This document shows, in pieces, positions 7,501 to 49,514 of a DNA stretch of 64,000 nucleotides. Both the position numbers and the translations under genes were made by a program. Origin of the DNA: Ruminiclostridium cellulolyticum H10. Lineage in GTDB: Bacteria; Bacillota; Clostridia; Acetivibrionales; DSM-1351. The notes under the pieces are model-generated. The model was not told the DNA's origin and searched no databases. It saw only the letters and a list, made by a program, of their open reading frames with translations. The stretch lies in NCBI RefSeq assembly GCF_000022065.1, contig NC_011898.1, forward strand, positions 3,661,501 through 3,725,500, written 5' to 3'. How positions within the stretch are numbered: the first letter of the stretch is position 1; every line of letters starts with the position of its first letter.

Positions 7501-9806
7501 GTATCCTGACCATTTACACCAACAAACTCATCCTTAGCGTATATATAGAATTTGTAGTATCCAAGCTGTGTTGGAGAATATTTGGGAAAATCACCAAGAC
7601 CATTCCATTTTTGAATCAATGTGTCAACAATGCCGTTATTGTCACTGTCATACCACAATTCTATTTTGGCGGCAGCCACTTTATCCCCATCTGTACTGTT
7701 TACATCATAGTGCCATGCACTTATTTGATCATTCCTTGTTACTACACTGTCAGATAAGTTCAGCTCTATATTTGGAGCAATGTCCTCAAGTACTTTGAAT
7801 TCTACCGTATACGGGTCAGACCATTTGCCAAGAGTGTTTTTGCACTCAAGAGTCACTAAATACGAACCCGGCTCTTTATATTGCAGTTGCTTCCGGATGT
7901 CGCTGTCGGTACCTTTGTACATTTGTGAAGTGTCACCACCGTAAGACCATCTGTATTCAACTATCGGATATTTGTCCAAAACCAGTTGTATGTTCCCATC
8001 CTCCGAGATATTCTCAACGTTTATTATTCTGTTTTGTTTCCAGGAGTTCGAGGAAAGCTTAAATTGTGCAATAGGTTTTGTGGGGTATACATACACATAA
8101 TCCGTTGATACATATTCAACAACGGCAGCACCAAGTATCTCCTTCTTTTTATCTTCCGGTATCCCAGTTAGTACGATTTTGCTTTTATCAAGGTTATACC
8201 TGCATATGACTTCTGCGAAGTATCCGTTTTTATCAGATGTGGCTGGAAATATGTAAGAGCCTGAAAAGAATTCGTTGTAGTCAACCTGTTCTCCATTAAT
8301 ATAGAGTTCAGTGCTCTTGACTGCTGACATATCAGTATTATCCGTTGCATCCCGGAATGGAACGGAGTCAAATGCTATTTCTCCTATGTGATTATTTATT
8401 TGAAGTGTAGGTATATCAATTACTAAGGATTCTTTTTTTGCCAGTGCCTTAAAGTTGTTTGTAAGAAACTTATTATTACCTTCTGCCTTTTGAGTGTGTG
8501 CATCTTTATATACTACTTTTGCAGTAGCTTCCACCGCTAATTGATATTTGTCCCCTGACTTTGGCAGCTTTTTTATGTCTGCTACAGTTGTTTCTACTGT
8601 AATAGTTGCAGTACCTTGGTTGTCAGCTGCACTCTTTGGTACTACCGTAACGGCTTTCTTTTGTTCATCAGTTAGTAGCAGGCCTGGGATTTTGTCAATG
8701 TTTAAATCCCAGTTTTTTATATCCTGTCTTGTATAAAATGCACTTCTTGTAACAGGATCTTTGTAGTAATCATCATCTTCCAAAACTCCCTGTACTTTAA
8801 ATTGAAGTTTAACCTTTTGTTTATCCAGTTCTCCGCCCTTCGGTATGCTTGGCAATGGAGAAGCAAGTGTGACATAGCACTTTACAGGCAAGTCATACTT
8901 GTTATTTTTCAGTATTGGTATTGAAAACGTCTGATACCAGATGGAGCCGTTTGGCCTTACGTGCCACATCTTTCCGCTACCGGAATACTGAATTGTAGGG
9001 GCCGACTGTACATACATATATTGATACACATTTGGGTCATAGTGTCCCTTCCCGTCTGGAATTCCGGAAAACCTATTTACGGAAGTAAAGGTTTTGTACA
9101 TCCAGTCTTTTAGCTTTTGTACTGTCTGATGACTATAGTGCTGGGAATCATTATATGCTGCATTGTTATATGTGCTCGTACTAAGTGTAAGTACCTTGTT
9201 AACTTCATTGTTTTTACTCCAAGGTTCCTTTATCCAATTCCTTTCCCTAAAGGTAGTCACTGTTGCTACGTTTATCATCCACATATTGCTGAATACTTCT
9301 CCATTTACATCAAAGCCTAGGTACTTCCACTCCCCACGATTTGTTTTACACTTGTCCCCATGAGTTTCAGGGTTCTGCTCCTTTCCCTTACAGGAGATTC
9401 CCTCCGGTTTCAAGAAATATCCCCCGCCATAGTATATATCCGGCATTTTCTTATCCAAATCATTATGCAGCTGATAACCGCACTTAAAATAGTTTCCTGC
9501 CACACTCCTGTAGCTGCCATATACTACAAGGTTTTTTTGTGTGAATAGCCTGTAGTTGAGATAATATGTATTAGTACCCTTTTTTATTGAAAATGGCACT
9601 GTACCTCCTCCCGGAAGTGTAGGTAACTGGTTGTTCTTTTTATAGCTATCATATGCAGTCCGATCAAAAAACTCCATGCCACCCTTTTCATATTTCAGGG
9701 ATGTATAGCTTCCTGCTGCATTTATCTTATAAAGTACTGGAAAAAAAGCAATAAAAAAAGCTGTACACATTATCATGCACAGCACCTTAACTAATCTGTT
9801 ATTCAA
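4533..9806 (-). CDS. Giant secreted repeat protein with Ig/PKD-like modules
   Basis: A 1,757-residue protein with an N-terminal signal or anchor segment (CMIMCTAFFIAFFPVLYKINA, residues about 10-30). Several beta-sandwich modules resembling PKD or Ig-like domains follow: about residues 585-690 (a YRWSYGGD core and SYLVTLECKNTLGKWSDPY), around 1210-1310 (TYDVMYYVKDMEGAWSDPWTYHF), and further modules to about 1660. A Gly/Ser/Tyr-rich low-complexity stretch lies near residues 900-960. There is no LPxTG motif and no C-terminal membrane span. It is encoded between the SLH protein and the AbrB regulator. Its size and make-up suggest an extracellular adhesin or scaffold, possibly a tip or stalk component of the neighbouring pilus or transfer apparatus. 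That role is inference; no enzyme motif was seen. Confidence 0.75.
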   Translation of the reverse strand: MNNRLVKVLCMIMCTAFFIAFFPVLYKINAAGSYTSLKYEKGGMEFFDRTAYDSYKKNNQLPTLPGGGTVPFSIKKGTNTYYLNYRLFTQKNLVVYGSYRSVAGNYFKCGYQLHNDLDKKMPDIYYGGGYFLKPEGISCKGKEQNPETHGDKCKTNRGEWKYLGFDVNGEVFSNMWMINVATVTTFRERNWIKEPWSKNNEVNKVLTLSTSTYNNAAYNDSQHYSHQTVQKLKDWMYKTFTSVNRFSGIPDGKGHYDPNVYQYMYVQSAPTIQYSGSGKMWHVRPNGSIWYQTFSIPILKNNKYDLPVKCYVTLASPLPSIPKGGELDKQKVKLQFKVQGVLEDDDYYKDPVTRSAFYTRQDIKNWDLNIDKIPGLLLTDEQKKAVTVVPKSAADNQGTATITVETTVADIKKLPKSGDKYQLAVEATAKVVYKDAHTQKAEGNNKFLTNNFKALAKKESLVIDIPTLQINNHIGEIAFDSVPFRDATDNTDMSAVKSTELYINGEQVDYNEFFSGSYIFPATSDKNGYFAEVICRYNLDKSKIVLTGIPEDKKKEILGAAVVEYVSTDYVYVYPTKPIAQFKLSSNSWKQNRIINVENISEDGNIQLVLDKYPIVEYRWSYGGDTSQMYKGTDSDIRKQLQYKEPGSYLVTLECKNTLGKWSDPYTVEFKVLEDIAPNIELNLSDSVVTRNDQISAWHYDVNSTDGDKVAAAKIELWYDSDNNGIVDTLIQKWNGLGDFPKYSPTQLGYYKFYIYAKDEFVGVNGQDTLSQYVTDSDKKSANLECDFWVDNYQPLSDIYIDAPIERPNVDLYIMRDKDLAQDKYEYIASNRVSMENALLGRNIIPNVNIWDMKIYEYSTPASISSNTGTSYPTEEIPYTSAGYSGKLQRTSVADNGGYHDFGHYETRIETKTISSGGGYSSGHGYGGSTPPSSISYSDGEGYTGSMSIKNYVYTSTPCGHPISPTHGEGYFNWTRSWSGYSGTASRTVSYWVPNMQWVANYTGYYSGTIFKYVRQPYTDMWRGNSSKYILYVSDSKISELLAFNEAVAKTDAKVILAGTPDIHKQYSDCAKFIDATDKTAQEILNEALEYISEETPEVEQVFILQNQQFTLNVGEDDLEKDEIISREMQYVQEKDYFDNPTGQEPGTLTVFNSGKGWTSDIKNSFSNVGKYRIYRRVKDKPSGAYGENYSYYSGATEVDMYVHRKPIADAVLDWKYDPQSGACKTIWIDKSYDLDHNITRANTDKGIVERKIMFRKDSGEWQYFIPDTLTYGTYDVMYYVKDMEGAWSDPWTYHFTLDDKPQFTASARAYDSAFTLKSIPASEYIEGYNLWTRQLNPVQLEMNLTPTVSALPSTKTVNFQEGVTGTQSGQDINWKNQTLQIPDIYPDGLRNFTITARDKLTGAETPKTFSVNVFTPINLEPALGGKTLNTNVQTKIYATTTKYPTVTRVNMQYGTPYQSYTLSMTPTPDSNLKSWVVNYMVPDNVPDGTYTAQFTSINPSGKAETKYISYKVSRNRPPEVNIQRISPQFVYEGDSVSMTFEVTDPDPEQVLTSKVTVKRGSEVVYSGENISYVSNGKKKTFTMKTPRLTETGTYTISVITIDQYFAQDTDITTFTVHGLTIKGYVNHTPTWKTNWDKYNKHLANKGKPTYGNDAFFNDEKYVLSAVTTEINSGSAVTASNVRVRILERSYGPVSLASQTANTFKGEMWNEDMKKNRWKGTYVTFVFTVTYSNGTIKTDTVKTYVVNDDYWRIRMAF

Positions 9807-9825: not shown

Positions 9826-11262
9826 TTATTTAAGCATTGTATCCTTTGTGATAAATCCTTTAGCCCAAACCCTAAAAGAGAAAACATTCCCGCTGTCACC
9901 ATTGCCCCCAACAACATATATTTGACGACCATTTAGCAAGTATATACCTATTTTCCCTTCAATATCATTTAAAGCATAACCTAAATACTGAGCATGTATT
10001 TTTTTTGCTTGCTCGTAATCCTTCCCAAACCAAAGCTTAAGTAGTTCATAGCTGTATTTCTTTAAGTCATTGTTGTATTTATCAACTTCGTAGCTTGTGA
10101 TATCGTACAGCCAACCGTTACAGTTATCATATAAACTCCGATCCTGTCCTTTCTTATTTTGAAGTTTCTCAACGGCTATTCCAACATAGTTCTGAGGTAA
10201 AATTAATCCGTTGAAGTTATAGTTCATATACTTTTTAAAGTGATCCTCACCATTAAAATAGTTAACTGCAAAACTCTTGTATTTCTCACTGAAAGTAAAG
10301 TCTATTTTCCCTCCTGTTATCAGGTTGCGGTTGTTGTACATTGTTTGTGCTGTTTCCCATATTTCCATCATTGGAAACAGTCCTTTATACAGGGTGTATT
10401 CCTTGTTTTCGTAAAAACCTGCGTCCTCGTTATCATATTCACCATTGTTGGCATTACTGTTGGTCCATTTAAAGCTTTCACTTGATGATGGAACGCTTTC
10501 TACCCTTGCCTTCTTGTCCAGAAGCTTGATTATTATTACGGATGCCTCGGCTCTGGTAAGAGTACCCTTGGGATTGAATTTATTGTTACTGCCTGTTAAA
10601 AGCCCTATACGGTAGCAATCTATGACATCCTGAAGGTATTTACCTGTGACAGTAGGATAATCTGTCATTTTAAGCTTCTGATAACCTACGTATACATTGT
10701 CAAAAAAGCCTTTGTTACCCTTGGATGGGTATGGGTCACTTCCCTTTACAAAGTAGTCCTTTGGAACCGTTTCATATTTTCCTATTGTTCTTCTTGCTAG
10801 ACTTGCCGCAAGCTCACGAGAGATAGGTTTTGTATAATCTAAATTTTCGCCTTTTGCCAATATACCTTCATTTAAGGCAATATCAACGAATGGTTTGTAA
10901 TACGGCACTCCTTGAGGTACTTCCGGTCGATAGCCTATTGCTCTGATGAGCATCAAAATGTACTGTCCCCCCAGAAGCTTATCATTAGGCCTGAAGCTTC
11001 CGTCCGGAAAGCCGGATATTATTTCAAGTGCAGATATTTTTGCTATGTAATTCCTGCCCCAGTGACTTTTAATATCTGTGTATTTAGCCAGCTCAGTATC
11101 AAGGCTTGCTTGTGTCAGACCGTTGTATTTGTCAATAAGAGGCTGCATACGCATTGCTGTTGTTGTACCAGCTGTATTATCAGCCAGGACCGGATAAACT
11201 CCAAGAAGTATAAATGAAATTACTAAGATAACCGATATAGCTTTTCTTAGGTTGTTTTTCAT
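9826..11262 (-). CDS. S-layer homology (SLH) domain surface protein
   Basis: A 478-residue protein with a signal peptide (AISVILVISFILLGVYPVLA, cleavage near residue 28). SLH repeats follow, at about residues 60-110 (IKSHWGRNYIAKISALEIIS then FPDGSFRPNDKL), 115-165 and 205-250 (IGLLTGSNNKFNPKGTLTRA). SLH domains bind pyruvylated secondary wall polymers, so the protein should coat the cell wall. The C-terminal 220 residues are not recognised. It sits 19 bases upstream of the giant secreted protein in one transcription unit, so both are likely displayed on the surface by the element, perhaps to mediate mating-pair contact (inferred). Confidence 0.88.
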   Translation of the reverse strand: MKNNLRKAISVILVISFILLGVYPVLADNTAGTTTAMRMQPLIDKYNGLTQASLDTELAKYTDIKSHWGRNYIAKISALEIISGFPDGSFRPNDKLLGGQYILMLIRAIGYRPEVPQGVPYYKPFVDIALNEGILAKGENLDYTKPISRELAASLARRTIGKYETVPKDYFVKGSDPYPSKGNKGFFDNVYVGYQKLKMTDYPTVTGKYLQDVIDCYRIGLLTGSNNKFNPKGTLTRAEASVIIIKLLDKKARVESVPSSSESFKWTNSNANNGEYDNEDAGFYENKEYTLYKGLFPMMEIWETAQTMYNNRNLITGGKIDFTFSEKYKSFAVNYFNGEDHFKKYMNYNFNGLILPQNYVGIAVEKLQNKKGQDRSLYDNCNGWLYDITSYEVDKYNNDLKKYSYELLKLWFGKDYEQAKKIHAQYLGYALNDIEGKIGIYLLNGRQIYVVGGNGDSGNVFSFRVWAKGFITKDTMLK

Positions 11263-20227: not shown

Positions 20228-21118
20228 CTATCCTCGTGTGACAACTCCTTTTGCCATTTGAAAAACCCTTGCCGTCTGGTAAACGCTTCCGGCATTAAAC
20301 CCTCCTCCGCTTGGAACCATGAACGACTGTAAGAATTTCGGTGTACTTAGTGCCGCAAGTATTATTGCCGTACCAATTATAGGGTGACCCGTAAACACCA
20401 CACTGAGTGCAAGCTGTGAAAGTCCCACTTGGACAACAACCGTTGCACAACACTGAAACATTACCTGGGTCATTGCCTTGTACATTGCTCTGTCGGAGTC
20501 CAGCAAACCTACACAGCCTATGGGAAATGCCATCCTTAATACGAACATTTCGACTCCAAGTTTAATAAACTGTACATAGAGAATAATTAACATAATTATG
20601 GCTACCAGAAAACCAATCAAATCAAAAATGCCTGATAACATAAGAGTACCTACATTACCGTAAGAAAATTCAGATGTAACACCACAAGCATTTCTTATAG
20701 CAGTAGAAAAGCTACTTGTTATATCACATAAATATCCATATAGGACGGGGAACGCCATGGCTATTGCCAGTGCTTTAAAAAAACTAGTGGCTAAAAGTAA
20801 AGGGTCTGTATCAGCATCCCCTTCTGTCCATAGAACGTATGCTTCAAATCCTTTTTTAAGGAATTTAAGTATAATCATAGCTACTGCCATAGTCAGGCAT
20901 AAAACCTGTATTTTTGACATTGCCGTTGACAGCACATTGGCGGCGTCTGTAATAGTTCCGTATGCAACGGATTCTGATAATGAATCTTTCTCCAGAATTA
21001 CCGGAATTGAGTTTTCAATACGCAATGATATTTCCTCCAACCCTGAAAACATACTGCCTATCCATATTGCACCATGACTTACTACTGGCTTAAAAAGAAA
21101 CTCAAGTATCTTATCCAA
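20228..21118 (-). CDS. VirB6/TrbL-like polytopic channel protein
   Basis: A 296-residue protein with an N-terminal amphipathic region and about six membrane spans (for example IQVLCLTMAVAMIILKFL, IFDLIGFLVAIIMLIILYV, VMFQCCATVVVQVGLSQLAL and GTAIILAALSTPKFLQSFM). A Gly-rich C-terminus follows (VPSGGGFNAGSV). This fits the TrbL/VirB6 family of conjugation channel proteins. Start TTG 21118, seven bases after AGGAGAG. Transcribed after the VirB2-like gene. Confidence 0.75.
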   Translation of the reverse strand: MDKILEFLFKPVVSHGAIWIGSMFSGLEEISLRIENSIPVILEKDSLSESVAYGTITDAANVLSTAMSKIQVLCLTMAVAMIILKFLKKGFEAYVLWTEGDADTDPLLLATSFFKALAIAMAFPVLYGYLCDITSSFSTAIRNACGVTSEFSYGNVGTLMLSGIFDLIGFLVAIIMLIILYVQFIKLGVEMFVLRMAFPIGCVGLLDSDRAMYKAMTQVMFQCCATVVVQVGLSQLALSVVFTGHPIIGTAIILAALSTPKFLQSFMVPSGGGFNAGSVYQTARVFQMAKGVVTRG

Positions 21119-26132: not shown

Positions 26133-28421
26133 CTAATATAAATCATCCTCTCTTCTTGAAATTGTTCTCCTTAAAAGATTCGGCTGCTGCTGTGGTTGCA
26201 TTACCTCGCATTGTTTCTGCCAATACTTCCAGCACTCGCTCCAAAGTTCTATTTTTTCTGCTTCCTTTTTGGTCGTTCTTTCGATTCTTTGTTTTTCTCT
26301 ATAGTCTCTTACCTTTTCGTTGTGTTTCTTATTGCCAAGACCAAGCATTGTGTTGAAATTCCATTTTGACAAATCCGGGGAATACATGATTGCCGGATTT
26401 TCCTTGGATGTAACCAGGCTGTATGGTCTGTCAATCTGAGCTATTTCGTTTGTCATTAGCAATGCTCTTCCTGTCAGATTTACACTTGCGGATGATGAGG
26501 GTGTTTGGTATTTACTGCTTTGACTGGATAGTGAATAGGTTGACACGGTGTAGTTTCCAAGCTTTTCTGATATTTCTTTGAGAGTTTCCGGTGAGTTTGT
26601 CTGCAAGTAATCCCATACCTGACAATTTCCTTTTATTGTTTTGGCAACCTTTTCATCGTACTTGCTTTCCAACTGAGCAAAGTCCTGAAGGAATAAATTG
26701 AATCTCATTCCCCTGCCTCCGCCGACTGTAAGTAGTGTGTCAAAGGAAGGTATGGCAGCAAAGTTTCCAAACTCATCAAGTATAAAGTTTACTCTGTTTT
26801 TAAGACGTCCTCCCCTGCCATCACTTTCATTTACCAGCTGAATGTAATGTTGCAGGACAAGTAATGATGCAATGCTGTAATATGTTGTTCGTTCATCCGG
26901 AAGAACCATAAACAGTGCTGTCTTTTTTCTGCCGAGGTCTTTTGGATTGTAGTCGCTTGCCATGGTCATTGCGTTTATGTAGCTTGATGTAAAGAGTTTC
27001 AGTGTAGTTAGTGCCGCAGTATAAAAGCTTCCCCTTGTTCTCTCAGGAGCTATTTCAGATATGGCTACCAGTGGCTTGGCAGGATGATTGTCCGGCAATT
27101 CTTTGACATATTCCACTATGGGAATATTCTTTCCAATGGGCTTGCACATTTCAGCTATAAAGTAATACACATTGGTCAAGGTCTGGTACTTTCTACGTTC
27201 GCCCTCTCTGTTGTCATATACAACCGACATTATGGCACAGGCTATTGTTGAAGCTTCACCATTGTTCCATATCTTTTCACCTTTTGCATCTCCAACCAGG
27301 ATACCGACTAAATCCCATACACACTCTGTTGCCTTGGGTATGTTATCTTCATCTATGGCATCAATTATTGGCTGTAAAAGGTTGTACCTATCGCTTTTCA
27401 AAGGATTTTTGAAGTCTAGGATTATAACGTTGTATCCCAGCCTTTTTAAAAAAGTTCCCGTATATTGGTTCAATTCTCCCTTTAAATCGGATATAATCAT
27501 ACTTTCTCCTGCCAGAGCTAAAAAACAAATACTTTGTATTACCAGAGTTCTACTTTTACCTGAACGTGTTGCTCCTATTCCAAGTAAATGCGTATCATCA
27601 CCAATATAGTAGAACAGCTCCTTTCCTCCACGAAGTTTTTTCATTCCAATAACCAGTCCGCCGGAACTGAAGCATTGGGTATCGGCAATCGTTTCAATAC
27701 TATCTGTTTTTATTTCAGCAGTCGAATCTGCCTCTTTTGAAACATCAAATTCACAATCAAACAAATCGGCGAGCTTGTCAATCTTCCTCTGTTCCTTTAT
27801 TTGCCATATACTCGGGAAGTACTTTCTAAGCATTTCATCATAGTATAGTCTGTGTTTACCTCGGAGTATATGCCTTTTTTCTTCCGGCAGCACCTTATCC
27901 ACAAGCCATTTAATATACTGAAAATGCAACTTCTTATGCTCCTGTTTATCTTCCTTGTCAATAACATGCTTTTTTGCTATAGCCCTATCCTTTTTACCAG
28001 CCGCTATCAGAGCTTTGTAAAATTCATCTTTATGATTTATAACAGCAGTATCAAAGGCTTTTGCTTTTTCCTTTTCAGTCATCCACCTGGCTGATCCGAA
28101 CTGGTTTTGACCTGCGGCTACCGGTGTATATATCTTTGGAGTTATACATTGCAGCTTACTGATATAGTTTCTGCTGTAACTGACCATAAGTGACGCTGCG
28201 AGACAGAAGGATAATCCCTCAAAGCATAAAAAAAGCAGTCGGTGTTTTTTGACTGTTTTTATACTTTCGATACATTCTTTTATAGGGTAAAATGTTGGTG
28301 CTCTGTCAGCTCCTAGCAGTATTTTATGAAATGCCATTGAGGCAAATACACAGAACACTGACAGTACTATAAATACAAAAAATACAGTGGCGTACTGTAT
28401 TTTCAAATGTCTGTTGTGCAT
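26133..28421 (-). CDS. virD4: VirD4/TraG type IV coupling protein
   Basis: A 762-residue coupling ATPase. Two N-terminal membrane spans (about 7-33 and 66-88), Walker A GATRSGKSRT near residue 284, SDLKGELNQYTG, and Walker B NFILDEFGNFAAIPS near residue 550. A Q-rich tail ends the protein. VirD4/TraG links the relaxosome to the secretion channel. ATG 28421 is chosen because AAGGAGG lies ahead of it. It lies 24 bases downstream of the relaxase gene, the expected partner. Confidence 0.95.
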   Translation of the reverse strand: MHNRHLKIQYATVFFVFIVLSVFCVFASMAFHKILLGADRAPTFYPIKECIESIKTVKKHRLLFLCFEGLSFCLAASLMVSYSRNYISKLQCITPKIYTPVAAGQNQFGSARWMTEKEKAKAFDTAVINHKDEFYKALIAAGKKDRAIAKKHVIDKEDKQEHKKLHFQYIKWLVDKVLPEEKRHILRGKHRLYYDEMLRKYFPSIWQIKEQRKIDKLADLFDCEFDVSKEADSTAEIKTDSIETIADTQCFSSGGLVIGMKKLRGGKELFYYIGDDTHLLGIGATRSGKSRTLVIQSICFLALAGESMIISDLKGELNQYTGTFLKRLGYNVIILDFKNPLKSDRYNLLQPIIDAIDEDNIPKATECVWDLVGILVGDAKGEKIWNNGEASTIACAIMSVVYDNREGERRKYQTLTNVYYFIAEMCKPIGKNIPIVEYVKELPDNHPAKPLVAISEIAPERTRGSFYTAALTTLKLFTSSYINAMTMASDYNPKDLGRKKTALFMVLPDERTTYYSIASLLVLQHYIQLVNESDGRGGRLKNRVNFILDEFGNFAAIPSFDTLLTVGGGRGMRFNLFLQDFAQLESKYDEKVAKTIKGNCQVWDYLQTNSPETLKEISEKLGNYTVSTYSLSSQSSKYQTPSSSASVNLTGRALLMTNEIAQIDRPYSLVTSKENPAIMYSPDLSKWNFNTMLGLGNKKHNEKVRDYREKQRIERTTKKEAEKIELWSECWKYWQKQCEVMQPQQQPNLLRRTISRREDDLY

Positions 28422-28445
28422 GAATATTTTTCCTCCTTGCACTAT

Positions 28446-29660
28446 TTATTTTTCAATATCCCAACCGGTTGATTCCATTTCCTTTGCTTTTTCCTTTCTG
28501 GCTTGCTTTGAAAGGTCACCACCCATAACATGCTTACTGGATATACGATTCTTTCTATTATTTTTTGTAAGCCTTGCCAGTGCTGAGAAAATTTCTGTTA
28601 CCAACTGTTCTGTCGCCCGTTCTCTTATACCGGCTTCAAACTCTTCATTTTTTATATTCCACTCCTTTTTAATAAATTTCCTTACAAGCCCCAAAAGCTT
28701 GTTTGCGATAATCTTCTCAGCCTCCTTTTCATATTCATCAGCTTTTGCATCCAGTTCCATTTCATTAGATGAATATATTCTGGCAATATCCAGCTTTGAT
28801 TCAACATACTCTGAAATGGCTTCCTGTAGGTTTTCATCTATGTCAACCAGCTCTCTAACTAAAGAAATAAGCTTGTCCTTTACATCAGGTTTGAGATACT
28901 CAAACTTTAGTGAACCTTTTGGTATCTCTTTTCTTATTTCAAATAGCCTTTGAGCCAGGTATTTGCAAAATTGACTATTCGGTTTATCAAAGAAGAACTC
29001 TTCATTTGTCAAAGTTGAATATTCTCTCTTGCTCATTTTATCCAAATAGGTTTCAAACTCACCGGTCATCTCATTTGTAATTTCCCTAAGCAAGTACTTG
29101 TTCTGATCTCTTTTCTCATAATATTCTTTCAGCTCGTCCTCAAATATGTTCTTGACCAGTTTACCTCTGATCTTATCCGGCACTTTGGGATTGACCCAGT
29201 TTTTTTGTATCTCCTGACGTTCATCCCAGAAAACAATATGTACATGGGGATGGCTGGGTGTGTCATGAGCTGCAGCAACCCATTTGAAATCTGACATCTT
29301 TATGTTGTTTCCCTCTGCAATTATCCTGATTTGTTGTTTTATAAGTTCTTGCCATGCCTCTTTGGTTATTGGCTCTCCAACCTTTATTGCTGCATTTTCA
29401 GGAGAGAATGAAATTACTGCCCTGAAAATATTTTTTCTCTCTTCGGATCTTTTCTTAACTATATCCATTACATCCTTAATCTTATGTTTGACTTCGAGAG
29501 TGTCGGAATCATACAAATTACCAAACAGGCCATGCTTTTCTCCCTCATTTTTTATTACTCCGGGACGAGTACCAATGTACCTGATATGTTCGGCATTTTT
29601 ATTCGGTGTGCGAGTTTCATTTACCGGCTTAAACCACTGTTTATAGAAAACTGCTGACAA
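28446..29660 (-). CDS. MobP-type relaxase (resembles MobP3 group)
   Basis: A 404-residue relaxase. The N-terminal 40 residues hold NKNAEHIRYIGTRPG and KHGLFGN, which I associate with the MobP3 group of Firmicute relaxases. The metal-binding histidine motif reads HDTPSHPHVHIVFWD near residues 131-145. A long helical C-terminal half follows. Relaxases nick oriT and pilot the strand into the recipient. Start TTG 29660, after GAGGTG. The subgroup name is from memory of the motif. Confidence 0.88.
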   Translation of the reverse strand: MSAVFYKQWFKPVNETRTPNKNAEHIRYIGTRPGVIKNEGEKHGLFGNLYDSDTLEVKHKIKDVMDIVKKRSEERKNIFRAVISFSPENAAIKVGEPITKEAWQELIKQQIRIIAEGNNIKMSDFKWVAAAHDTPSHPHVHIVFWDERQEIQKNWVNPKVPDKIRGKLVKNIFEDELKEYYEKRDQNKYLLREITNEMTGEFETYLDKMSKREYSTLTNEEFFFDKPNSQFCKYLAQRLFEIRKEIPKGSLKFEYLKPDVKDKLISLVRELVDIDENLQEAISEYVESKLDIARIYSSNEMELDAKADEYEKEAEKIIANKLLGLVRKFIKKEWNIKNEEFEAGIRERATEQLVTEIFSALARLTKNNRKNRISSKHVMGGDLSKQARKEKAKEMESTGWDIEK

Positions 29661-34827: not shown

Positions 34828-36546
34828 TCACTCCCAGCTTCCATCAAATGCACTAATATCACCATAGTCACCAATGACTTCCTCTATTTCCGGTACTGAT
34901 TGCAATTTATTGTCCAGTTCATTTTCAGCTATACCACAGTGTTTATATAGCTCTTGAATGAATTCAATATTGGGTCTTACATTTTTTATTTGATTTATAT
35001 AGTTTGTAAGGTAATTGATATTTGCCCCATAGTTTAGTAGAACTTTTGCTGCTTCAAGTTTATTGGTTTCATAACATGCATAGAGTGCTTCACCGTTGTT
35101 TGAATTAACATCAGCTCCTCGGCTGATAAGTGTATGCATTGCATCTGCATCCTTATGCTGGGCTGCAAAATAGAAAAGTGCCGGGGAATGCTCGTCTATA
35201 TTCCGGCATTGCATTAACCCTGAATTGAGTAGTCCATATTTTCCGGCTCTTATCAATTCTTTGAATATTACTGTATCATCTAAGGCTTTTGAACTTGACT
35301 TAATGAATTTTTCTGCATCTGCCTCCGGTAAGGTGGTTAATGCATGACTGAGGAAACCCCTCATAGTATCAAACTGTGCTGAACCATGTAAGTTTGCATC
35401 TGTATATTTGTATATACTCAATGCTGAATTAATGTTATTGTCTATTGCTGTTACGAACGCATTCTGCAATGTTCTGATAGATACAGGAACTTTCTCTTTG
35501 TATAGAATATGGTTTATTATATCCGTACTTTGAATTGTTGCTCCCTGAGCTGCCTCACATATAAAGTCATGACAATATTTAATCTTCTGCTCAAATGTTC
35601 TGTACAGTTCTCTGAATGTATCAATGTTTTCGTTATTTATTGCAGAGTATAAAGAGTTCAATTTTTCTGATGTAATTTTGTCTGCATCTATAACCTGATC
35701 AAGCTTCTTGCTGATTGCACGAAGCATCTTTCCCATTACTTCTCCCAACAAACCAAACATACTACTCTTTGGCTCATACTTCTTCTGATTCTCTTCAAGT
35801 AAATCAATAACAACCTCTGCCTGTTCAGGAGTAAAGTTTACGTTTATAAGCTGATTCTTGATACTTCCACTTTCATTGCCGCCGTTAATTAATTCTTTTT
35901 GACTGTAATTATCGTTAATCTCCACATCATTTAAGGCTTTATTACCTGTTGGAATTGTGACCGTTTTAGTTGTTTTGGCTGTTGTTTCTTCGTCTTCTGA
36001 AGCCGACTGATGAAGCTTTTTAAATTCCCTTGCAACATCTTCATTAGCCAAGGCCTTTTGAATTGATAATGCTACTTCTCTGGGATCAGCATCATTCTTA
36101 ATATCGTTTTCTTCTACTTGGGGGTTCTTGGTGTTTAACTGTTCATCCTCGTTATTTATGGCCTTGTCTTCAGTATCCATCCAGAAGCTTTCAACCATTA
36201 GCTGCATTGCCTTTGTAGCTTTGCTAAAAGCTTCGGCTGCTTTACCGGACTCAATCTTGTATTGTCCGCTGAACATTCTCCCTTTTAATTCCGGATTTTT
36301 GTTGTCCATTACATTGATAGAGGCAACAACCATGTCGCTGCTCACAGATAACATTCCGGAAACGTTATAATCTTTTGGAAATTCGCTCTTCTGGAATTTC
36401 TTAAAGTCTGCGGACAAAAAAGAAAAGTCAGGTTTCAATCCCTGACTTTCCAATCTGCTGCCCAACTCATCCGATATTTCTTTAATTGTTTTAATTGTTT
36501 CTTTTCCTTTGCCCCCACCGGGTTTGTACAAATCAATTTTCTTCAT
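34828..36546 (-). CDS. Ankyrin-repeat protein in the par operon
   Basis: A 572-residue protein if started at ATG 36546, which follows AAGGAGG and overlaps the parB 3' end by 14 bases. The N-terminal 130 residues form an alpha/beta domain; a low-complexity Glu/Asp/Asn-rich linker follows; residues about 420-540 hold ankyrin repeats (SPALFYFAAQHKDADAMHTL, then ISRGADVNSNNGEALYACYE, then AAKVLLNYGANINYL). Ankyrin repeats bind proteins. An ankyrin protein between ParB and a primase is unusual. Function unknown. Confidence 0.7.
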   Translation of the reverse strand: MKKIDLYKPGGGKGKETIKTIKEISDELGSRLESQGLKPDFSFLSADFKKFQKSEFPKDYNVSGMLSVSSDMVVASINVMDNKNPELKGRMFSGQYKIESGKAAEAFSKATKAMQLMVESFWMDTEDKAINNEDEQLNTKNPQVEENDIKNDADPREVALSIQKALANEDVAREFKKLHQSASEDEETTAKTTKTVTIPTGNKALNDVEINDNYSQKELINGGNESGSIKNQLINVNFTPEQAEVVIDLLEENQKKYEPKSSMFGLLGEVMGKMLRAISKKLDQVIDADKITSEKLNSLYSAINNENIDTFRELYRTFEQKIKYCHDFICEAAQGATIQSTDIINHILYKEKVPVSIRTLQNAFVTAIDNNINSALSIYKYTDANLHGSAQFDTMRGFLSHALTTLPEADAEKFIKSSSKALDDTVIFKELIRAGKYGLLNSGLMQCRNIDEHSPALFYFAAQHKDADAMHTLISRGADVNSNNGEALYACYETNKLEAAKVLLNYGANINYLTNYINQIKNVRPNIEFIQELYKHCGIAENELDNKLQSVPEIEEVIGDYGDISAFDGSWE

Positions 36547-37591
36547 CACCTTCGACCTCCTTGTTATTTTCTTTTTCAGAATCTTCTGCTTCTTGCCTGC
36601 GGCGTTCAAAGTATTCTTCAAGGGCCTGTTCAATTGTTGATGTTATTTCTGTCTGCGTAGCATAAGCATTGAAGAATCTTGAAATAAGTTTTGGTTTTAC
36701 TTTTACTGCTGTTAGCTTTGGCCTTTTCTTTTTCTCAAAGAATTCACCGGATGCTATGGCCAATATATCATCCTCTGTAAGTTTTCCACTCCTTTCCTTT
36801 AGTTTATCTGCTCTTTTCATATCTATCCTGTAATCGTTTTTATTCAGGATACTGAAAAGAATATTTTGTTCATCTATAGTTAAATATGACAGGCTTACTG
36901 CCGGATTTAACTTGATGCTTCCTTCGTCTAACATGTTAAGTAATTCTTCGTTGAGATAATTAAGACGGATATATCGGCGAACATTCTCTCTGCTCATCTT
37001 GTTTTTATTTCCTACTTCATCAACACTCCATTGGCCCTGCACAACTTGTGTAGAAGTAGCGCGAAGCCCATTATTATCAGTATTTGAGTAACTTTCAATT
37101 GCATTAATTAACTCACGTTTTTGCTTGGCTTCCTTACATGCTTCCAATTGCATCTGTAAGCTCTTGGCAAGCTCACTGGGAAGCATTTCTTCCACTGAAC
37201 GCTGTATAAAGTTGGAGTCTGTTACAATTATTTTTGCCTGTGCATCTGTGATATCTTCTTTAATTTCGGCAGGAACTTTTGTCAGTCCGGCAAGCTTCGC
37301 TGCATTAACACGGTTATGGCCTGCCAGGTTCTCATATGTCCCGTCATCTTTTTTTCTAACCACTATAGGAACTATCACTCCATTTTCCTTTATGGATTCA
37401 ACCATTTGCCTGAGCTTCTCACCTGTGTACAGTCGGAATGGATGATTTTTGAAGGGTACTATAAGGTTTATATCTATTTCAGTAGCATTTTCCTTATTTT
37501 TGTTTGTAGTATTCAAATTAAACATCTGGGCAAAAGCATTGTCTGACGGCTTATCCAACTTCTTTGAAAAGTCAATTTTTGTTGTCCCCAC
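36533..37591 (-). CDS. parB: ParB/Spo0J-family partition protein
   Basis: A 352-residue protein with the ParB N-terminal nuclease-like/CTPase domain (RLYTGEKLRQMVESIKENGV, VPIVVRKKDDGTYENLAGHN then RVNAAKLAGL). A helix-turn-helix region follows at about 190-230 (VDEVGNKNKMSRENVRRYIR), then a charged C-terminus. It binds centromere-like sites and pairs with the adjacent ParA. GTG 37591 follows the ParA stop directly. Confidence 0.93.
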   Translation of the reverse strand: MGTTKIDFSKKLDKPSDNAFAQMFNLNTTNKNKENATEIDINLIVPFKNHPFRLYTGEKLRQMVESIKENGVIVPIVVRKKDDGTYENLAGHNRVNAAKLAGLTKVPAEIKEDITDAQAKIIVTDSNFIQRSVEEMLPSELAKSLQMQLEACKEAKQKRELINAIESYSNTDNNGLRATSTQVVQGQWSVDEVGNKNKMSRENVRRYIRLNYLNEELLNMLDEGSIKLNPAVSLSYLTIDEQNILFSILNKNDYRIDMKRADKLKERSGKLTEDDILAIASGEFFEKKKRPKLTAVKVKPKLISRFFNAYATQTEITSTIEQALEEYFERRRQEAEDSEKENNKEVEGDEEN

Positions 37592-38371
37592 TTACACTCT
37601 ACTCCTTTCAATCAGCTCCTTTGTCACATTTCTGTATTCGGCACCCAGTACACTATTTTCCATGGAAACCAGGCTTTTTTGTTCAAATGTACTGTTTGTA
37701 GCTTCTACCCTTTTGTGAATCCTGGTAACAAAGAGAGTATCACCATATTTTCTTTCTAATTCTGCTTCTACCGCCTTGGACATATTTGTATTATCAGCCA
37801 TGGTCAATATAACACCATCAATTTTAAGTTCAGGATTTACATTTACCTTAACCATGTTATATACTTGTTCAAGCTGTACTAATCCATCCAGAGCAAACTT
37901 CTGTGCTTGTACGGGAATTATGAGGCTATCTGCTGCTGCAAGTGCATTTGTAAGAAGGATACCAAGGCTGGGCAGGCAGTCAATAATTATATAATCATAT
38001 TTACTGAATATTTCTTTTTTCAGTATCCTATTTAACACTTGCTCCCTGCACATTACATTTGATAAGAACAAGTCAGCCCCGGAAAGTTTTATACTGGAAG
38101 GAATATAGTCAATGCCCTCCTTACTGTGCACTATACTTTCTACTATGTACTCATCACTCAGATTATTGTTTGCCGCTGCCACCATCAGGTCGCTGATATT
38201 GTACAAGCTTTTATTGTCATAACCTAAATAGTCACTCATGTTTGCCTGCGGATCGAGGTCAATGCCTATGACGCTCAATCCTTCTTTCACCAGACCAGCG
38301 GCAATGTTTACAGCGGTTGTAGTTTTACCTACTCCGCCTTTTTGATTTGCAATTGCAATTACTTTTCCCAT
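37592..38371 (-). CDS. parA: ParA-family partition ATPase
   Basis: A 259-residue protein with Walker A KGGVGKTTTAVNIAAGL at residues about 10-27, switch DLDPQANMSDYLG and the IIDCLPSLGILLTNAL motif, the full pattern of Soj/ParA ATPases. It supports segregation or stability of the excised circular element, together with ParB. It lies directly downstream of a short hairpin leader. Confidence 0.95.
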   Translation of the reverse strand: MGKVIAIANQKGGVGKTTTAVNIAAGLVKEGLSVIGIDLDPQANMSDYLGYDNKSLYNISDLMVAAANNNLSDEYIVESIVHSKEGIDYIPSSIKLSGADLFLSNVMCREQVLNRILKKEIFSKYDYIIIDCLPSLGILLTNALAAADSLIIPVQAQKFALDGLVQLEQVYNMVKVNVNPELKIDGVILTMADNTNMSKAVEAELERKYGDTLFVTRIHKRVEATNSTFEQKSLVSMENSVLGAEYRNVTKELIERSRV

Positions 38372-42169: not shown

Positions 42170-45100
42170 TTACATCTCAACTTCCTGCTCTTCTTCATCA
42201 GTAACTACAGACGAAACATTTATTGCTACCTCTTTGTCTTCAATTGACGCTTCATCTCCAAGAACTTCATCCTGCTTATTTAAATCAAGTTCAATGTTTA
42301 GTTCTGCCTGACGTGCTAATTTTGTCTTGTATTCTTCCTCGTAACGCCAAGGCTTTTCATATTCTGCCTTTGCTGTTTCGAAGTCCTGATTAAGTTGTTC
42401 CAATTGATTGCGGCATCTTTGCAATGACGGTTCCATACCTTCCAGTGCATTGTCTGTACGTGTGATATTCCCGATGGGATTCCCACCAAGCTCAATTGTG
42501 TACTGATATTTACCTGTAATATGTAGATTAAACCCACTTAAGAATTCATTGTATTCAAGCTTTAAATCAAAGCCTTTGTAGGTTCCGATTCTTACCTGCT
42601 TCCAGTTCTCTTTTTTTGCCTTGCTACAAAGCAGTAACAAAAGTTCTCCCGCTTTTTCTTTTTCAGTAATCAGAGTGTTTTCCAATACAATGCTGAACTC
42701 ATCATCCGGGAACTTGTTTGAGTTTCGTAATTCTATGTCCTTTTGTATGGCTTCTATTTTTACTTGATATGAATTAATACCTTTGGGAATCGAGTACACT
42801 ATACTATCTTGTAGAGAGTATCTTTGTTTTGACCAAGCAGCCTTTAGTACGGAAAGCTTATTTATTTCTATGTCCAAATCCATCTTTTCCTTTATTCTTG
42901 GATCTCCCATTGCCAAAGCTTTTATTTCAGCATAGTTTAAAACTACTTCATCTATATCCTCACAGCTACGGCTTACAGCCTTGCTTGTCATTATCTGTGA
43001 GATAAAGCGTTGTTTCTGCTCAACGGTTTGCCAGAGGTACCCATCAAACGTATCCTTTGTAACATATCTGAATATCTCTACTTTCTCGTTTTCGTTTCCC
43101 TGCCTTAGTATTCTTCCATCACGTTGTTCTATATCTGCAGGCCGCCATGGACAATCCAGGTGATGGAGTGCAACAAGCTTGTTTTGAATGTTTGTCCCGG
43201 TTCCCATTTTGGGAGTTGAACCCAGGATTATTCTTTTCTCTCCTGTACGCATTGCAGAGAACATTGATTCTTTTTGCTTCTTTGTTTTGGCATCGTGGAT
43301 TATGCATATTTCATCTTCCGGAATCCCGAAACTGACAAGTTTATTTTTTATATCATAATAAGCACAAAAACCTCCACGGTCATTTGGGGTTCCAACATCA
43401 GAGAATATTATTTGTGTACCCTTGCTTGAGTTGAATTCAATGTATTTCTGATATACATTGTCCACCAGTTTATTTATTTTGCTCCCCGGTTCATCAGGTG
43501 CATCAGGAATTATTAATCGTGGATCTGTCCCGAATTGCCTTGCTTCGTTTGTAATTTTAAGCATGTTATCTATTGACGGATCTACAAGGCCGTTTCTGAT
43601 TCTTTCAGCTCGTTCCGCACTTTCCTGTACAAGTTCCTGCTGCAACTCCGACGGCTCAGAAGTTACCACTGTAACCTTATTGTTTTTAAGTTTTGGTACA
43701 GGGAGGTTTAACATGTCGGCAGTCTGAATATCAGCTATATTTTTAAACATTGTCATTAACTCAGGAAGATTAGTAAATTTACTGAATCTGTTTCTCATTC
43801 TGAATCCACGGCCTTCAGGTGCAAGTTCAAGTGCTGATACAACTTCGCCAAAACTTGCTGCCCATGCATCAAAGTTATGAATCCCTTTTTCTCGAAGTTC
43901 ATTTTTTTGCAAGAACTGCTGCATTATGAACATTTCGGTCATTGAATTGCTTATAGGTGTTCCTGTTGCAAAGATAACATTTCGTCCGTTGTTTTCCGAA
44001 ATTATATAGTCGCATTTCATCTGCATATCCAGAACCTTTTTTGCAGAGTTCCCTGATATACCCGCAACGTTTCTCATCTTGGTAAATACACCGCCATTTT
44101 TATAATAATGGGCTTCGTCTACAAACAAGCAATCAACCCCCAGCTGTTCAAAGGTTAATACATCATCCTTGGGAGCATCCGCCAGCTGTTCCAACTTAGC
44201 TTCAAGATTAAACTTCATTTTCTCCATCTGCTTAATTGTCCATTTGTCTCCGTTTTGCTGCTTATAAGCAGATACAAATTCAACTATTTCTTCTATGGTG
44301 TTTTTTATTATCTGGCTTTGCAGTTCAACCGATACCGGTATTCTCTCGAACTGACTCTGGCCTATGATTATTGCATCATAATCACCTGTTGCTATCCTCG
44401 CCAGAAATCTCTTTCTGTTTGCCGTTTCAAAATCCTTTTCAGTGGCCACCAGGATGTTGGCAGCCGGATATAGTTTTAGGAAATCTGCTCCCTGCTGTTC
44501 TGTCAAATGGTTAGGCAGTACGAACATGGCTTTCTTAATTATATTGAGCCTTCTCATTTCCATACAGGCAGCCTGCATGGTGAATGTCTTGCCTGCTCCC
44601 ACAACATGTGCCAATAAGGTATTACCGCCGTATAGTATTCTTGCTACGGCATTTTTCTGATGTTCTCGAAGTTTTATGTAAGGACTCATGCCCGGGAATT
44701 TTAGGTGTGAACCATCGTATTCCCTTAACCTGATGTTATTAAAGTTGGTATTGTAGAAGTTAACATACTTGTTCCTTCTGTCCGGGTCTTTAAATATCCA
44801 GTCCCGGAATTCTTCCTTGATAGCATCCTGCTTTGCCCTTGCTGCTATTGTTTCATTCTTGTTTACAACATATTTTACTTTTCCGTCAGCATCTTCTACC
44901 CTATCCTTAACTACAACACTTCTCAAGTTTAGAGTATCTTCTATAATACTGTAGGCATCAGCCTTTTTTGTTCCGTATTCTTCAGTGGCCTTCATACTGT
45001 TCCATTGCAGTGACTTATTCTGTATTGACCATGAACTTGAAAAAGAATTGTATGTTGTGTAGATTCCGGTTCCCTTTGATTTGCTATTATCTCTTTGAAA

Positions 45101-48100
45101 GAACCCCGGTACCTTTAGCAACTCGTATATAAATTGATTTATATCTTCGGTTTCAATCCATGTTGTCCCAAGCTTTACATCTATTTCAGACGCGTCCAAG
45201 TCCACAGGCTGAACGCTCTCAAGGGCCTTAACATTTATCTGGTAATCTGGATTATCCTTGGCGTAATATAAAGCGGTTTTCAACTTATAGCGTACATCTC
45301 CTGATAGGTATTCGTCTGCTGTCTCATATCTTTTTTTATCAGGATTGAGGAATATAAGTCCTTCCAGTTCACTAATTATCTTTTGTTTATCAGCTTTATA
45401 TATAGACGCCATATAATCCAAATCAACTTCTCCTTTTTCAGAAAGAGACGCTGCCAGAGAATCCGCTGCCGTACTAACTTGAGTAATTATCTCGTATGGT
45501 CTGATTGTTTGTTTGTAGAATATATCAGCCAATGACTTAACATTGCCCTTTTCATCGAGAACTTCAAGAGAAGATAATAAAGGCAAATCTGAATCCTTTT
45601 GAAAGGCCCTTAGATTTGCCGTACTGTTTATTATTCCATACTTCCGTGTAAATGTATTATATGACTTTAATAACTTCTCCTGATATGGTTTAAGCTCTTC
45701 CTGAGTACAACCTTCTGTCTGGATTTCTATAACCTTTCTTAATATTTCTCTTACCTCACACATGCCCCTGACACGTTGGGAAGTTTTTTCAGGAAGTATT
45801 ACTTTAGCCATTTTGGAATTTTCTCTATAGTAGATGTTTTCATCTTTTAATACATATGTATAGTTTTTGACTTCCGGCTCTGCAGGCAGATATTCTTCTT
45901 CCTGATTTTCTTTTCCAGTATCAATTATTTCTATCCTGGCATGTAGTTTTTCAGCTGCTTTGTCAAGAGCTTCAACCAAATTGAAATTATCCTCTGCAAC
46001 AAGGCTTGTATATTTTCCGTCACTTCCAAACATCCTGTTATCAAAAATCATTTTCCCAAGGAGCATATCAGGATTATCCAGATAATACTGATTTACAGGT
46101 ACTTCGTCATCAGTCTGGCCAAGTCCCGTCCAAGCCGGTTCTTCATCCAAAATAATTGCATGATCACGTTTCTGAAGAAAAATAATGTCTGTTGTTACAT
46201 CTGTATTTGCTATCTGCTTGAAGGCATTGTTTGGAAGCCTTATTGCTCCTATTAGCTCGGCACGTTCCGCAAGATATCTCCTGAAGGAACCGTTTGCCTT
46301 ATCCAGAGTTCCTTTGCTGGTTATATATGCTATAATTCCTCCGGGACGAACCTTGTCCAATGTCTTTGCAAAGAAGTAATCGTGTATGTTAAGGTTGAGC
46401 TTGTCATATCTTTTATCACGGAGCTTGTAATCTCCAAAAGGGACATTGCCCACTGCAATATCAAAGAAATTGTCTGAAAAGTCTGTATCTTCAAACCCCT
46501 GAATCCTTATATCAGCCTTTTGGTAAAGTTGCTTTGATATCCTTCCGGATATGCTGTCCAGTTCGACACCATATAATTGGGATTTATCGGAAATGTCTTC
46601 AGGGATTAAGGAATAAAATAAGCCGATACCCATTGCTGGCTCAAGTATGTTACCCCCTTTAAAACCAAACCTGCTCAATGCTTTGTATATAGCTTTGATT
46701 ACTTGCGGCTCTGTATAATGTGCATTGGGCGTAGATGCTCTGGCACTGCTGTATTCTTCCTCAGTAAGGAGTTCTTTTAATTCCTGGTACTCATTTTCCC
46801 AGCCTTTGGCTTCTGCATTGAATACCTGGGATAATCCGCCCCACCCGGTGTACCGGGTAAGTATGCTCTGTTCCTGACTTGTTGCAATACGTTTTTCTTT
46901 TTCGATATCCTTTAGCAGCTTAATTGCTTCAACATTGGCTTTATATTTTGTCTTTTGACCACCGGCACCAATATCATCTGAAGGGTTATATCTATAGTTA
47001 ACTTTCTTACTTATTGCAGCTGTATATTCATTTTGATCTTGCTCAATTTCATTCTGGGGCCTTTTCTGGTTTTCTGAGTCTTCAAGCTCTTTAATAGCAA
47101 GGTCTAATTTCTCTCCTGTTCGCTCGACTCCATTAAAAAATTCTGAGGTTAACTTCTCAACCTCATTTTCTTTTATCTCTATTAAATCAAATAGAGTTTG
47201 TTGATTCCGGGGTAAAAAATTAGAGCCACCATTTTCTGATGACTCTTTATCTTTTCCACTGTTATTTTCTTTTATCTTGGAATTCTGACTACTTCTTTCA
47301 TCACTATTTCCTGAGCTGTTTCCCTTATCCAGTTGTAATATCTCGCCAGTTCCATGTAGTTGTCCGTTTTGGGTTCCTGATATTGCTGTTTTAACTGTTC
47401 CTGAATCTTTTGCATCATTAAAACTGCTTGTGTGTCTACCTGATAAATTGTACTGAACCATATACCCTGAATCTTCATTTCCTGCACTCTCTTCGGGTAA
47501 TTTTGTACCAAGTATTTCACTGCTTCCGCTGCGAATATCCCTTCCGGCATTCCCTCCAACTCTGGGTTCTCGTCCGGTGATATCACCGGATAAAGTATCC
47601 CCTCCGATCCTTCCCTGTACTCCGCTTTGGATATCGGTTCCTGATTCTTTATTGTCTCCGTCTCTTTGTTCATGGCTACCTGTATTTCCTCCGGTGTCTC
47701 CGGATATTCCACTAGTCCAATTCCTTCTATGTATTTGGTTCGCATTTTTACTTATCTCCTTATTTTTATATATTCGTGCCGGTTTTTCCAAAAGTCTCAA
47801 AACCTGTTTGCTAATTTCACATATTATTGAAGCATACTCAGTTGCTTGTCCAACATCAAGCTGTTGCAAAATATCTTCAAAATGATATTTTCCTTCAGTA
47901 TCAAATTTAAGCTTGTCAAATACAGAATATACAACACTATCTTGCACAAAGCAATCAAAGTATTCTCCCGGATAATCATGTTTCTCTAAAAACTCAGTAC
48001 AAAGACTTTCTACAAAACCTTCAAAATCCCTTTCTTTTTCTACACCTAGATATTCCATAATATAGTTTTGAGCAGCATTCGATTTTATGGTGTAGCTGTT

Positions 48101-48403
48101 AATTCTACTTGTATAGTTACCGTGTGTATCTGATATATCAAATAAATATCGTACACCTTTACTATCAGGGTCAAAAACCTTAATTGCCCTGCTGCCACGA
48201 TTTATCCATCTTCCTACCCTTTTATTCCATGTATCCATGTCTGCAACAATAGTTGCATCAGGCCTTTGATTGTAAATAAGGACAGTTTCGTAAAAACCAT
48301 ACTTGAATAACTGTCCTGAGAAACCTAGAAACTTTTTCCACTGGCTGTCATTCCTCGTAATCTGCTTCATAGTTTCATTAAACATTGTTTTGAAACTAGG
48401 CAT
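42170..48403 (-). CDS. Giant N6-methylase/SNF2-like helicase of the ICE
   Basis: A 2,077-residue protein. Residues about 1-95 resemble an ArdC-type antirestriction/ssDNA-binding domain ([33 protein letters not shown]). A low-complexity Ser/Gly/Asn-rich spacer covers about 220-390. A methyltransferase core follows ([14 protein letters not shown] near 588; NVPFGDYKL near 654), then a superfamily 2 helicase with VGAGKTFTM near 1269, [10 protein letters not shown] near 1431 and [14 protein letters not shown] near 1767. Proteins like this are hallmarks of large Firmicute ICEs; they are thought to protect or process incoming DNA. The cellular role is not proven. Confidence 0.88.
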
Positions 48404-49273: not shown

Positions 49274-49302
49274 AAAAAAGACAGCTTATTTGTTTAGCTG
49301 TC
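49274..49302 (-). terminator. Terminator at the right end of the element
   Basis: GACAGCT / AGCTGTC arms, 9-base loop, then T6 on the minus strand. It blocks leftward transcription from the chromosome into the element, upstream of the 256-residue gene. Confidence 0.7.
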
Positions 49303-49314
49303 CTAAAGGGTTTT

Positions 49315-49370
49315 TCAAGGGGCTTAGCCACTTGGTTTATTTAGTTTCTACCCTGTTCCATTTTGTTACA
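49315..49370. other. Right end of the element (attR region)
   Basis: The stretch next to the spoIIID fragment contains an imperfect inverted repeat CAAGGGGC-TTA-GCCACTTG (49319-49337), possibly a recombinase binding site. The exact crossover cannot be placed without the left junction; it should fall near TCAGTCCACAAGGAC (49371). Confidence 0.4.
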
Positions 49371-49514
49371 TCAGTCCACAAGGACGTAACCGAACGGTTG
49401 GAAAAAATAAATCCTGTACTGATGAATGAAGTAAGGACAATACTTGAGGAAAATAAGGCAGAAAGGCATATACGCGGTGGTGAAGCAACAAAGGCAAAAT
49501 ATCAGGCGAAATAA
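49371..49514 (+). pseudogene. spoIIID: spoIIID, C-terminal fragment interrupted by the element
   Basis: The frame reads SVHKDVTERLEKINPVLMNE, then VRTILEENKAERHIRGGEAT and KAKYQAK, matching the C-terminal half of SpoIIID, including part of its helix-turn-helix (STVHKDVTERL in the family) and the conserved HIRGGEATKAKY end. About 35-40 N-terminal residues are missing and replaced by element sequence. SpoIIID is a mother-cell transcription factor needed for sporulation. The frame continues upstream by chance to an ATG at 49290 without a ribosome site. A terminator follows. The missing half should lie at the other end of the element, outside this window. Confidence 0.85.

Follow-up and report, generated by a model that had tools for sequence, protein, structure and literature searches.

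Two accounts (PMC10747680, PMC5595907) describe developmental splitting by mobile DNA for a small number of sporulation genes; in most cases the inserted DNA is phage-like. In the skin systems of B. subtilis and C. difficile, the element splits sigK, the gene of a mother-cell regulator, and excision rebuilds the gene. The large serine recombinase (LSR) of C. difficile skin is CD1231 and its recombination directionality factor (RDF) is CD1234; it is the small RDF, not the LSR, that is under the control of sigmaE and SpoIIID (PMC5025042). SPbeta in spsM of B. subtilis (SprA/SprB) is a mobile element that is still active, and PMC6957869 and PMC4191935 give its RDF gene a sigmaE/K promoter for mother-cell excision. 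Furthermore, the non-phage element gin splits gerE, a very small regulator gene, in Bacillus cereus ATCC 10987 (PMC5595907, in excerpt), and the clostridial element yin in yabG of Clostridium botulinum V73 has a putative RDF gene behind a possible sporulation promoter (PMC10747680, in excerpt).

Here we analysed a stretch of 64,000 nucleotides (the window), corresponding to bases 3,661,501-3,725,500 of the complete, one-contig genome of the spore former and cellulose degrader Ruminiclostridium cellulolyticum H10 (4,068,724 bp), in which a conjugative element (ICE) lies inside spoIIID. Like skin, it splits the gene of a mother-cell regulator; however, spoIIID stands close to the top of the mother-cell cascade, one step earlier than sigK, and the carrier is an ICE. 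Being one step earlier, its switch should not need SpoIIID. The element shares with SPbeta its mobility, but SPbeta is a prophage in a non-regulatory gene of Bacilli. It shares with gin a very small, split regulator gene, whereas gin has three recombinases and no conjugation genes, and occupies another gene in another class. In contrast to the spoIIID element, yin is described as prophage-like and unique to one strain, and yabG is a late protease gene. A report of an interrupted spoIIID was not found among the matches listed in the open-access literature, outside which most subscription journals lie, and the word spoIIID is absent from the main text, as far as consulted, of an LSR survey (PMC10083194). 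The gene would represent a new target for skin-type excision elements.

The split spoIIID gene of R. cellulolyticum H10

The preliminary description of the window had read the frame at 49371-49514 as the C-terminal half of SpoIIID, with the N-terminal part of the protein replaced by sequence of an inserted conjugative element. A search of the complete genome with the Pfam SpoIIID profile (PF12116) bore this out, yielding two partial matches only, both on the same strand. The C-terminal match covers 49371-49511 (genome 3,710,871-3,711,011; E 8e-21) and is stop-free; it belongs to an ORF at 49290-49514 that starts in element sequence and ends ...HKDVTERLEKINPVLMNEVRTILEENKAERHIRGGEATKAKYQAK. The N-terminal match (profile 1-42, 68.6 bits) was found to the left of position 1, where the description had suggested looking for it, at genome 3,646,002-3,646,127 and 64.8 kb left of the C-half. 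At this left junction the N-half reads ...SKSTVHKDVTKWNG and then a stop codon, yielding a truncated protein. Restoration of the gene by the left end of the element is excluded in H10 because of this truncation. An intact spoIIID elsewhere in the genome, the other finding that the description had named as fatal to the insertion, is ruled out by the profile search together with the uniqueness of the C-half DNA, which has no second copy anywhere in the complete genome. The main features of the locus are as follows, in window coordinates unless marked as genome coordinates.

genome 3,646,107-3,646,123 (left of the window): attL copy of the 17-bp direct repeat GTCCACAAGGACGTAAC, from the exact-repeat search
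genome 3,646,107-3,661,500 (outside the window): left 15.4 kb of the ICE, with the LSR, RDF candidate, two-component genes and Cas9/Cas1/Cas2
genome 3,646,232-3,647,884 (-): ORF of the LSR, adjoining attL (PF00239/PF07508/PF13408)
1-49373: right-hand 49.4 kb of the 64,767-bp ICE
1530-3362 (-): VirB4-like conjugal transfer ATPase (PF19044, PF12846; NF045975 E 1e-101, below cut-off)
20228-21118 (-): TrbL-like conjugal transfer protein (PF19597, E 1e-75)
26133-28442 (-): VirD4-type coupling protein (PF02534 E 9e-56, PF12696)
28446-29660 (-): MobP3/MobL relaxase (NF041499 E 2e-54, above cut-off; PF18555)
36533-37591: ORF beside ParA, clustering with a ParB-like protein of the R. sufflavum element (PF02195 on that relative)
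37592-38371 (-): ParA-like partition ATPase (PF13614, E 3e-52)
42170-48403 (-): large helicase/methylase-like protein (PF04851, PF00271, PF07669), presumably of the type common in clostridial ICEs
49355-49369 (+): right arm of the deduced attP, GTTCCATTTTGTTAC, matching without exception, in inverted orientation, the left arm at the element's other end
49371-49514 (+): spoIIID C-half behind attR (PF12116 35-81, 76 bits), with TAA at 49512-49514
49374-49390 (+): attR copy of the 17-bp direct repeat GTCCACAAGGACGTAAC, from the exact-repeat search between the junctions

The direct repeat that the description had expected at the junctions is present at genome 3,646,107 and window 49374, and the two copies are 64,767 bp apart. 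Joining the two ends of the element gives a deduced attP in which perfect 15-bp inverted arms GTTCCATTTTGTTAC surround a 16-bp spacer. Joining the flanks in silico gives an uninterrupted, full-length SpoIIID frame, exactly restored, which is identical to the intact gene of the sister genome G006 at 239 of 246 nucleotides (G, L and C numbers denote genomes, loci and contigs). Removal of the element in silico also restores the exact spoIIID frame in a second split genome of the genus, G009. As in skin-type systems, the element thus lies in a sporulation gene of which the genome has no other intact copy, contains a recombinase and is flanked by short direct repeats at both junctions.

The break falls within the DNA-binding helix, at its S-T-V-H|K-D-V-T codons. 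The two halves remain open frames, the C-terminal one within a TTG-started ORF of 74 aa, and conceivably each is translated on its own and the pieces come together as a split protein. However, the helix-turn-helix region itself is broken, and both halves are joined to unrelated, element-encoded residues, which makes such reassembly extremely improbable.

The gene content supports the conjugative nature claimed for the insert. An integrase, a relaxase, a coupling protein and a type IV secretion ATPase, the set by which an ICE is recognized, occur together in it, and by these genes the H10 spoIIID insert is an ICE. Its LSR has Resolvase, Recombinase and Zn-ribbon domains and probably starts nearer 3,647,770 than the listed ORF start. 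The gene is situated at the left end and antisense to spoIIID, whereas most relatives have the LSR beside the C-half. Near attL, inside the ICE, there are a LytTR response regulator, a GHKL sensor and an ORF of 57 aa (L003:9730-11917); the latter resembles, by eye, an agr-type autoinducer precursor, and quorum control of the ICE is possible. The ICE also encodes Cas9 (TIGR01865), Cas1 and Cas2 (L004:990-5302), so that a type II CRISPR system appears to travel with it. A 1757-aa PKD-containing protein (4533-9806) and an SLH-domain protein (9826-11262) in the window are possibly surface cargo.

Comparison with five sister genomes (G003-G007) revealed that the DNA on both sides of the element corresponds to the spoIIID neighbourhood in all five. 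In three of them (G004, G006 and G007) a short segment with spoIIID is inverted relative to its neighbours, and G003 has a more complex rearrangement; G005 keeps the order of the neighbours, with about 4.4 kb extra on the right. This points to repeated local inversion at the spoIIID locus of these sister species.

A recombinase family at spoIIID and the small gene upstream

Species genomes of GTDB were scanned with an alignment of five spoIIID-element LSRs, and the best 80 of at least 492 relatives were analysed. In 73 of these 80 loci the LSR has a spoIIID C-half behind it on its own strand, within about 0.3 kb in 69 cases and within 2.5 kb in the other four. A strict pattern placed the C-half behind 65 of the 80 (61 within about 0.3 kb; L054, L056, L059 and L132 within 2.5 kb), and a profile search found it directly behind eight of the other 15. 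At L055, from Marasmitruncus massiliensis, the LSR lies between spoIIID halves that are 125 kb apart on one contig, and the remaining six are L069, L104, L113, L120, L122 and L125. Whole-genome searches covering 45 of the 80 found both halves in 45 of 45 genomes, in ten of them on different contigs, and in five the match of one half runs across stop codons. On single contigs the smallest insert measures about 4.2 kb (G449) and the largest about 125 kb (G429). One of the 45 genomes, G445, has an extra full-length spoIIID, which we rejected as the excised state; as it is only about 84% identical to the split copy, the two copies would come from different organisms.

The LSR relatives occur in host groups that include Lachnospiraceae, Oscillospiraceae, Ruminiclostridium and Negativicutes, with hosts such as Blautia, Agathobaculum, Schaedlerella arabinosiphila, Sporofaciens musculi, and Negativicutes and Pelosinus MAGs. 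Between hosts, the LSR genes are up to 94% identical, whereas the host C-halves are saturated at synonymous sites, which indicates that the elements move between species. For this reason dN/dS on the C-halves was rejected as a test of selection after insertion; its median of 0.25 (154 of 2556 pairs with usable dS) is uninformative on the time after insertion.

The carriers differ widely. Nine small elements read whole measure 4.3-7.5 kb including the halves and contain the LSR, often a small RDF-candidate gene, and cargo genes some of which resemble, by eye, RloA/RloB and nucleotidyltransferase/HEPN genes. Among four LSR relatives from IMG/VR, one, on a 62-kb rumen phage contig (L180), precedes an uninterrupted attP-like palindrome (by eye) and has no spoIIID half; the other three are 43-45% identical and use different sites. 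Of nine large ORFs tested from this contig, six received functional PHROG names, including DNA polymerase, ligase, endolysin and tail proteins, and two had no match in PHROGs. Given the free palindrome and these phage genes, the phage appears to use the same spoIIID site. The contig also has an RDF candidate with the sigmaE-like promoter pattern described below. MT838016.1, a 6.4-kb human-faecal phage record, is an integrated form with the C-half beside the LSR. Taken together, the loci point to one LSR family specialized on spoIIID, the putative carriers of which are ICEs, a phage and mini-elements. Another link between mobile DNA and this gene is phage phi6013 of Clostridium pasteurianum, which encodes its own SpoIIID and SigE according to the passage cited (PMC5027557).

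Upstream of the LSR, on the same strand, most elements encode a small protein, some 45-60 residues long, that shows the pattern [K]LNYRFHNPN... (the H10 element has IEFVDPN..., and there its frame overlaps the listed LSR start). A profile built from these very loci found it in 72 of 93 elements: 62 times within 3 kb, nine times 3-5 kb upstream, and in the overlapping frame of H10. Of the 62 near matches, six have weak E values (8e-5 to 2e-3), and one locus enters this survey twice, as L054 and as G009. In the other 21 there is no match on the LSR strand, five of them having less than 800 bp upstream. Searches with six of the candidates gave no Pfam family at cut-off, and NCBIfam gave none for two. 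The gene probably encodes the RDF of the LSR, since its size, strand, position and conservation fit this role.

The DNA upstream of the RDF candidate contains a recurrent motif, TA-N16-CATA, which corresponds to a sigmaE-like promoter (-35 xTA, 14 bp, -10 CATA). This pattern, fixed after seeing the matches of a scored scan with the B. subtilis sigmaE consensus, is present in 30 of 46 non-redundant loci (44 of all 65). Other spacings from 6 to 30 reach at most 10 of 46, 2000 shuffles averaged 2.0 and never exceeded 7, and only 7 of 407 other ORFs (at least 150 aa, 43 loci) are preceded by it. The H10 element has it as TCATAGC-N14-CATACATA, 36 bp ahead of the RDF-candidate start codon, and spoIIID itself is preceded by TCATAAG-N14-CATATATA. 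In the element of the closest relative, G009, the CATA box is missing from this position. We considered and rejected a sigmaE-like promoter immediately before the LSR, where the scan gave 10 hits in 76, against 6.4 expected and 10 on the reverse strand. The -35 element of C. difficile promoters is ATA for sigmaE and AC for sigmaK, with a similar -10 (PMC3789822). The motif suggests mother-cell sigmaE control of the RDF-candidate gene.

Occurrence of split spoIIID and its probable excision during sporulation

In the genus Ruminiclostridium, 9 of the 11 genomes searched have a full-length spoIIID, and H10 (G000) and G009 have halves only. Across the order, a SpoIIID match was obtained in 54 of 58 genomes; five (G000, G009, G025, G026 and G046) have halves only, and the match in G050 is confined to a short C-terminal piece. 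Of 393 genomes drawn evenly from the class, 285 gave a match, and among these we examined in detail the 45 with several matches or a weak best match. At least 12 of the 285, counting G000 and G009, have both halves and no full copy, the others being G097, G108, G296, G311, G301, G392, G407, G411, G387 and G349. In the 16 N-halves and 19 C-halves read, the break is at S-T-V-H|K-D or no more than a few codons away. Many spoIIID genes called 'missing' or 'truncated' may accordingly be whole after excision.

Two further loci are of note for their contents. The 6-kb insert in spoIIID of G025 (L027, C555) has no recognizable phage or conjugation genes, and its cargo comprises GNAT, DUF2156-like, metallo-hydrolase and serine-hydrolase-like genes (named by eye). 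In G002 (L023, 586001-600000), an intact spoIIID is followed by RloA/RloB-like genes (by eye) and two decayed copies of the C-half; each stands behind an attR-like arm, and they may be scars of earlier insertions.

Not all split genes are in good order. G260 and G317 combine a C-half with a degraded N-half, and G248, G199 and G135 have a single half. Such remains are what would be expected if spoIIID were dead in the split strains and these sporulated without SpoIIID; the stop codons in one half of 5 of the 45 genomes with LSR relatives agree with this, and because the elements move between species, recent insertions would need no selection on the halves. On the other hand, the joined frame is exact in H10 and G009, and the LSR, the RDF candidate and its promoter pattern are conserved. 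Moreover, in G030 the element brings a complete, diverged spoIIID of its own, which immediately follows attL and the truncated N-half of the host (L030, C33:113454-113875), as expected if the host needs the protein. We therefore consider a dead spoIIID very unlikely. The G030 element itself may represent replacement of spoIIID instead of excision.

In the cited passage of PMC3936895, wild-type H10 gave 35.7 +/- 7.3% survivors of a heat test and a spo0A mutant gave none. For a strain that makes spores and has spoIIID only in split form, excision in the mother cell is the simplest explanation. Of the two alternatives raised in the preliminary description, left-end restoration thus fails in H10 and sporulation dependent on excision is favoured, given the lack of any other spoIIID, the good sporulation, the LSR with its att sites, and the mother-cell-type promoter of the RDF candidate. 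Skin-type developmental excision of the ICE from spoIIID in the mother cell is, on these grounds, quite probable. A point against it is that SpoIIID is perhaps partly dispensable in some clostridia.

These features enable us to propose a putative model. Initially, the ICE would have integrated by its own LSR at an attB inside spoIIID, leaving two halves, neither of which codes for the whole protein. After asymmetric division, the sigmaE-like promoter of the RDF gene would bring about excision in the mother cell: once switched on by the RDF, the LSR would recombine attL with attR, take the element out and restore the spoIIID frame. SpoIIID would then be made and the mother-cell programme would continue. 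Finally, the excised DNA would be lost with the dying mother cell, and the forespore would keep the element. A mobile element could persist in a developmental gene in this way, as the only cell that needs excision is the one that dies, and spore formation in split-spoIIID strains may depend on a mobile element.

Excision might also proceed without developmental control. ICEs and LSR elements excise at a low rate in growing cells, and with steady, spontaneous excision a spoIIID-positive minority would sporulate and give cured spores. However, the heat survivors of H10, at about 36%, are well above the usual level of spontaneous excision, and the sequenced H10 genome still has the element. In addition, the sigmaE-type pattern is specific to the RDF-candidate gene across the family. 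Steady excision is accordingly an unlikely source of the spores.

A second split gene, sigK, and the likely order of rearrangements

If the ICE is excised from spoIIID in the mother cell, this would probably not be the only such event in H10, where sigK is also split. A sigK model places its halves at genome 498,635-498,970 and 505,561-505,944, and the insert (498,635-505,944, L174), an element of 6.6 kb distinct from the ICE, encodes an LSR-like recombinase and a protein of 62 aa. Within the genus, 9 of 11 genomes have both sigK halves, G008 has the N-half only and G002 has an intact gene. Among 17 split-spoIIID genomes examined, sigK is split in five (G000, G009, G025, G026 and G301; in G026 on different contigs) and full-length in 11, seven over the model cut-off and four just under it; G460 has no clear sigK.

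In B. subtilis the skin recombinase is not expressed without SpoIIID (PMC3789822), and in C. difficile SpoIIID increases the expression of the skin RDF gene (PMC5025042). Given this dependence of the skin excision genes, the order in the doubly split strains is likely spoIIID first and sigK second. In R. cellulolyticum and four other species, sigmaE would then lead to excision of the spoIIID element, SpoIIID would help excision of the sigK element, and sigmaK would follow; in R. cellulolyticum the first step would be run by a conjugative element of a mobile, spoIIID-dedicated LSR family. We lean slightly towards this complete cascade. As both genes are split in H10, the order of the rearrangements is testable there. 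The cargo of the H10 sigK element resembles CO dehydrogenase and an ABC transporter (named by eye).
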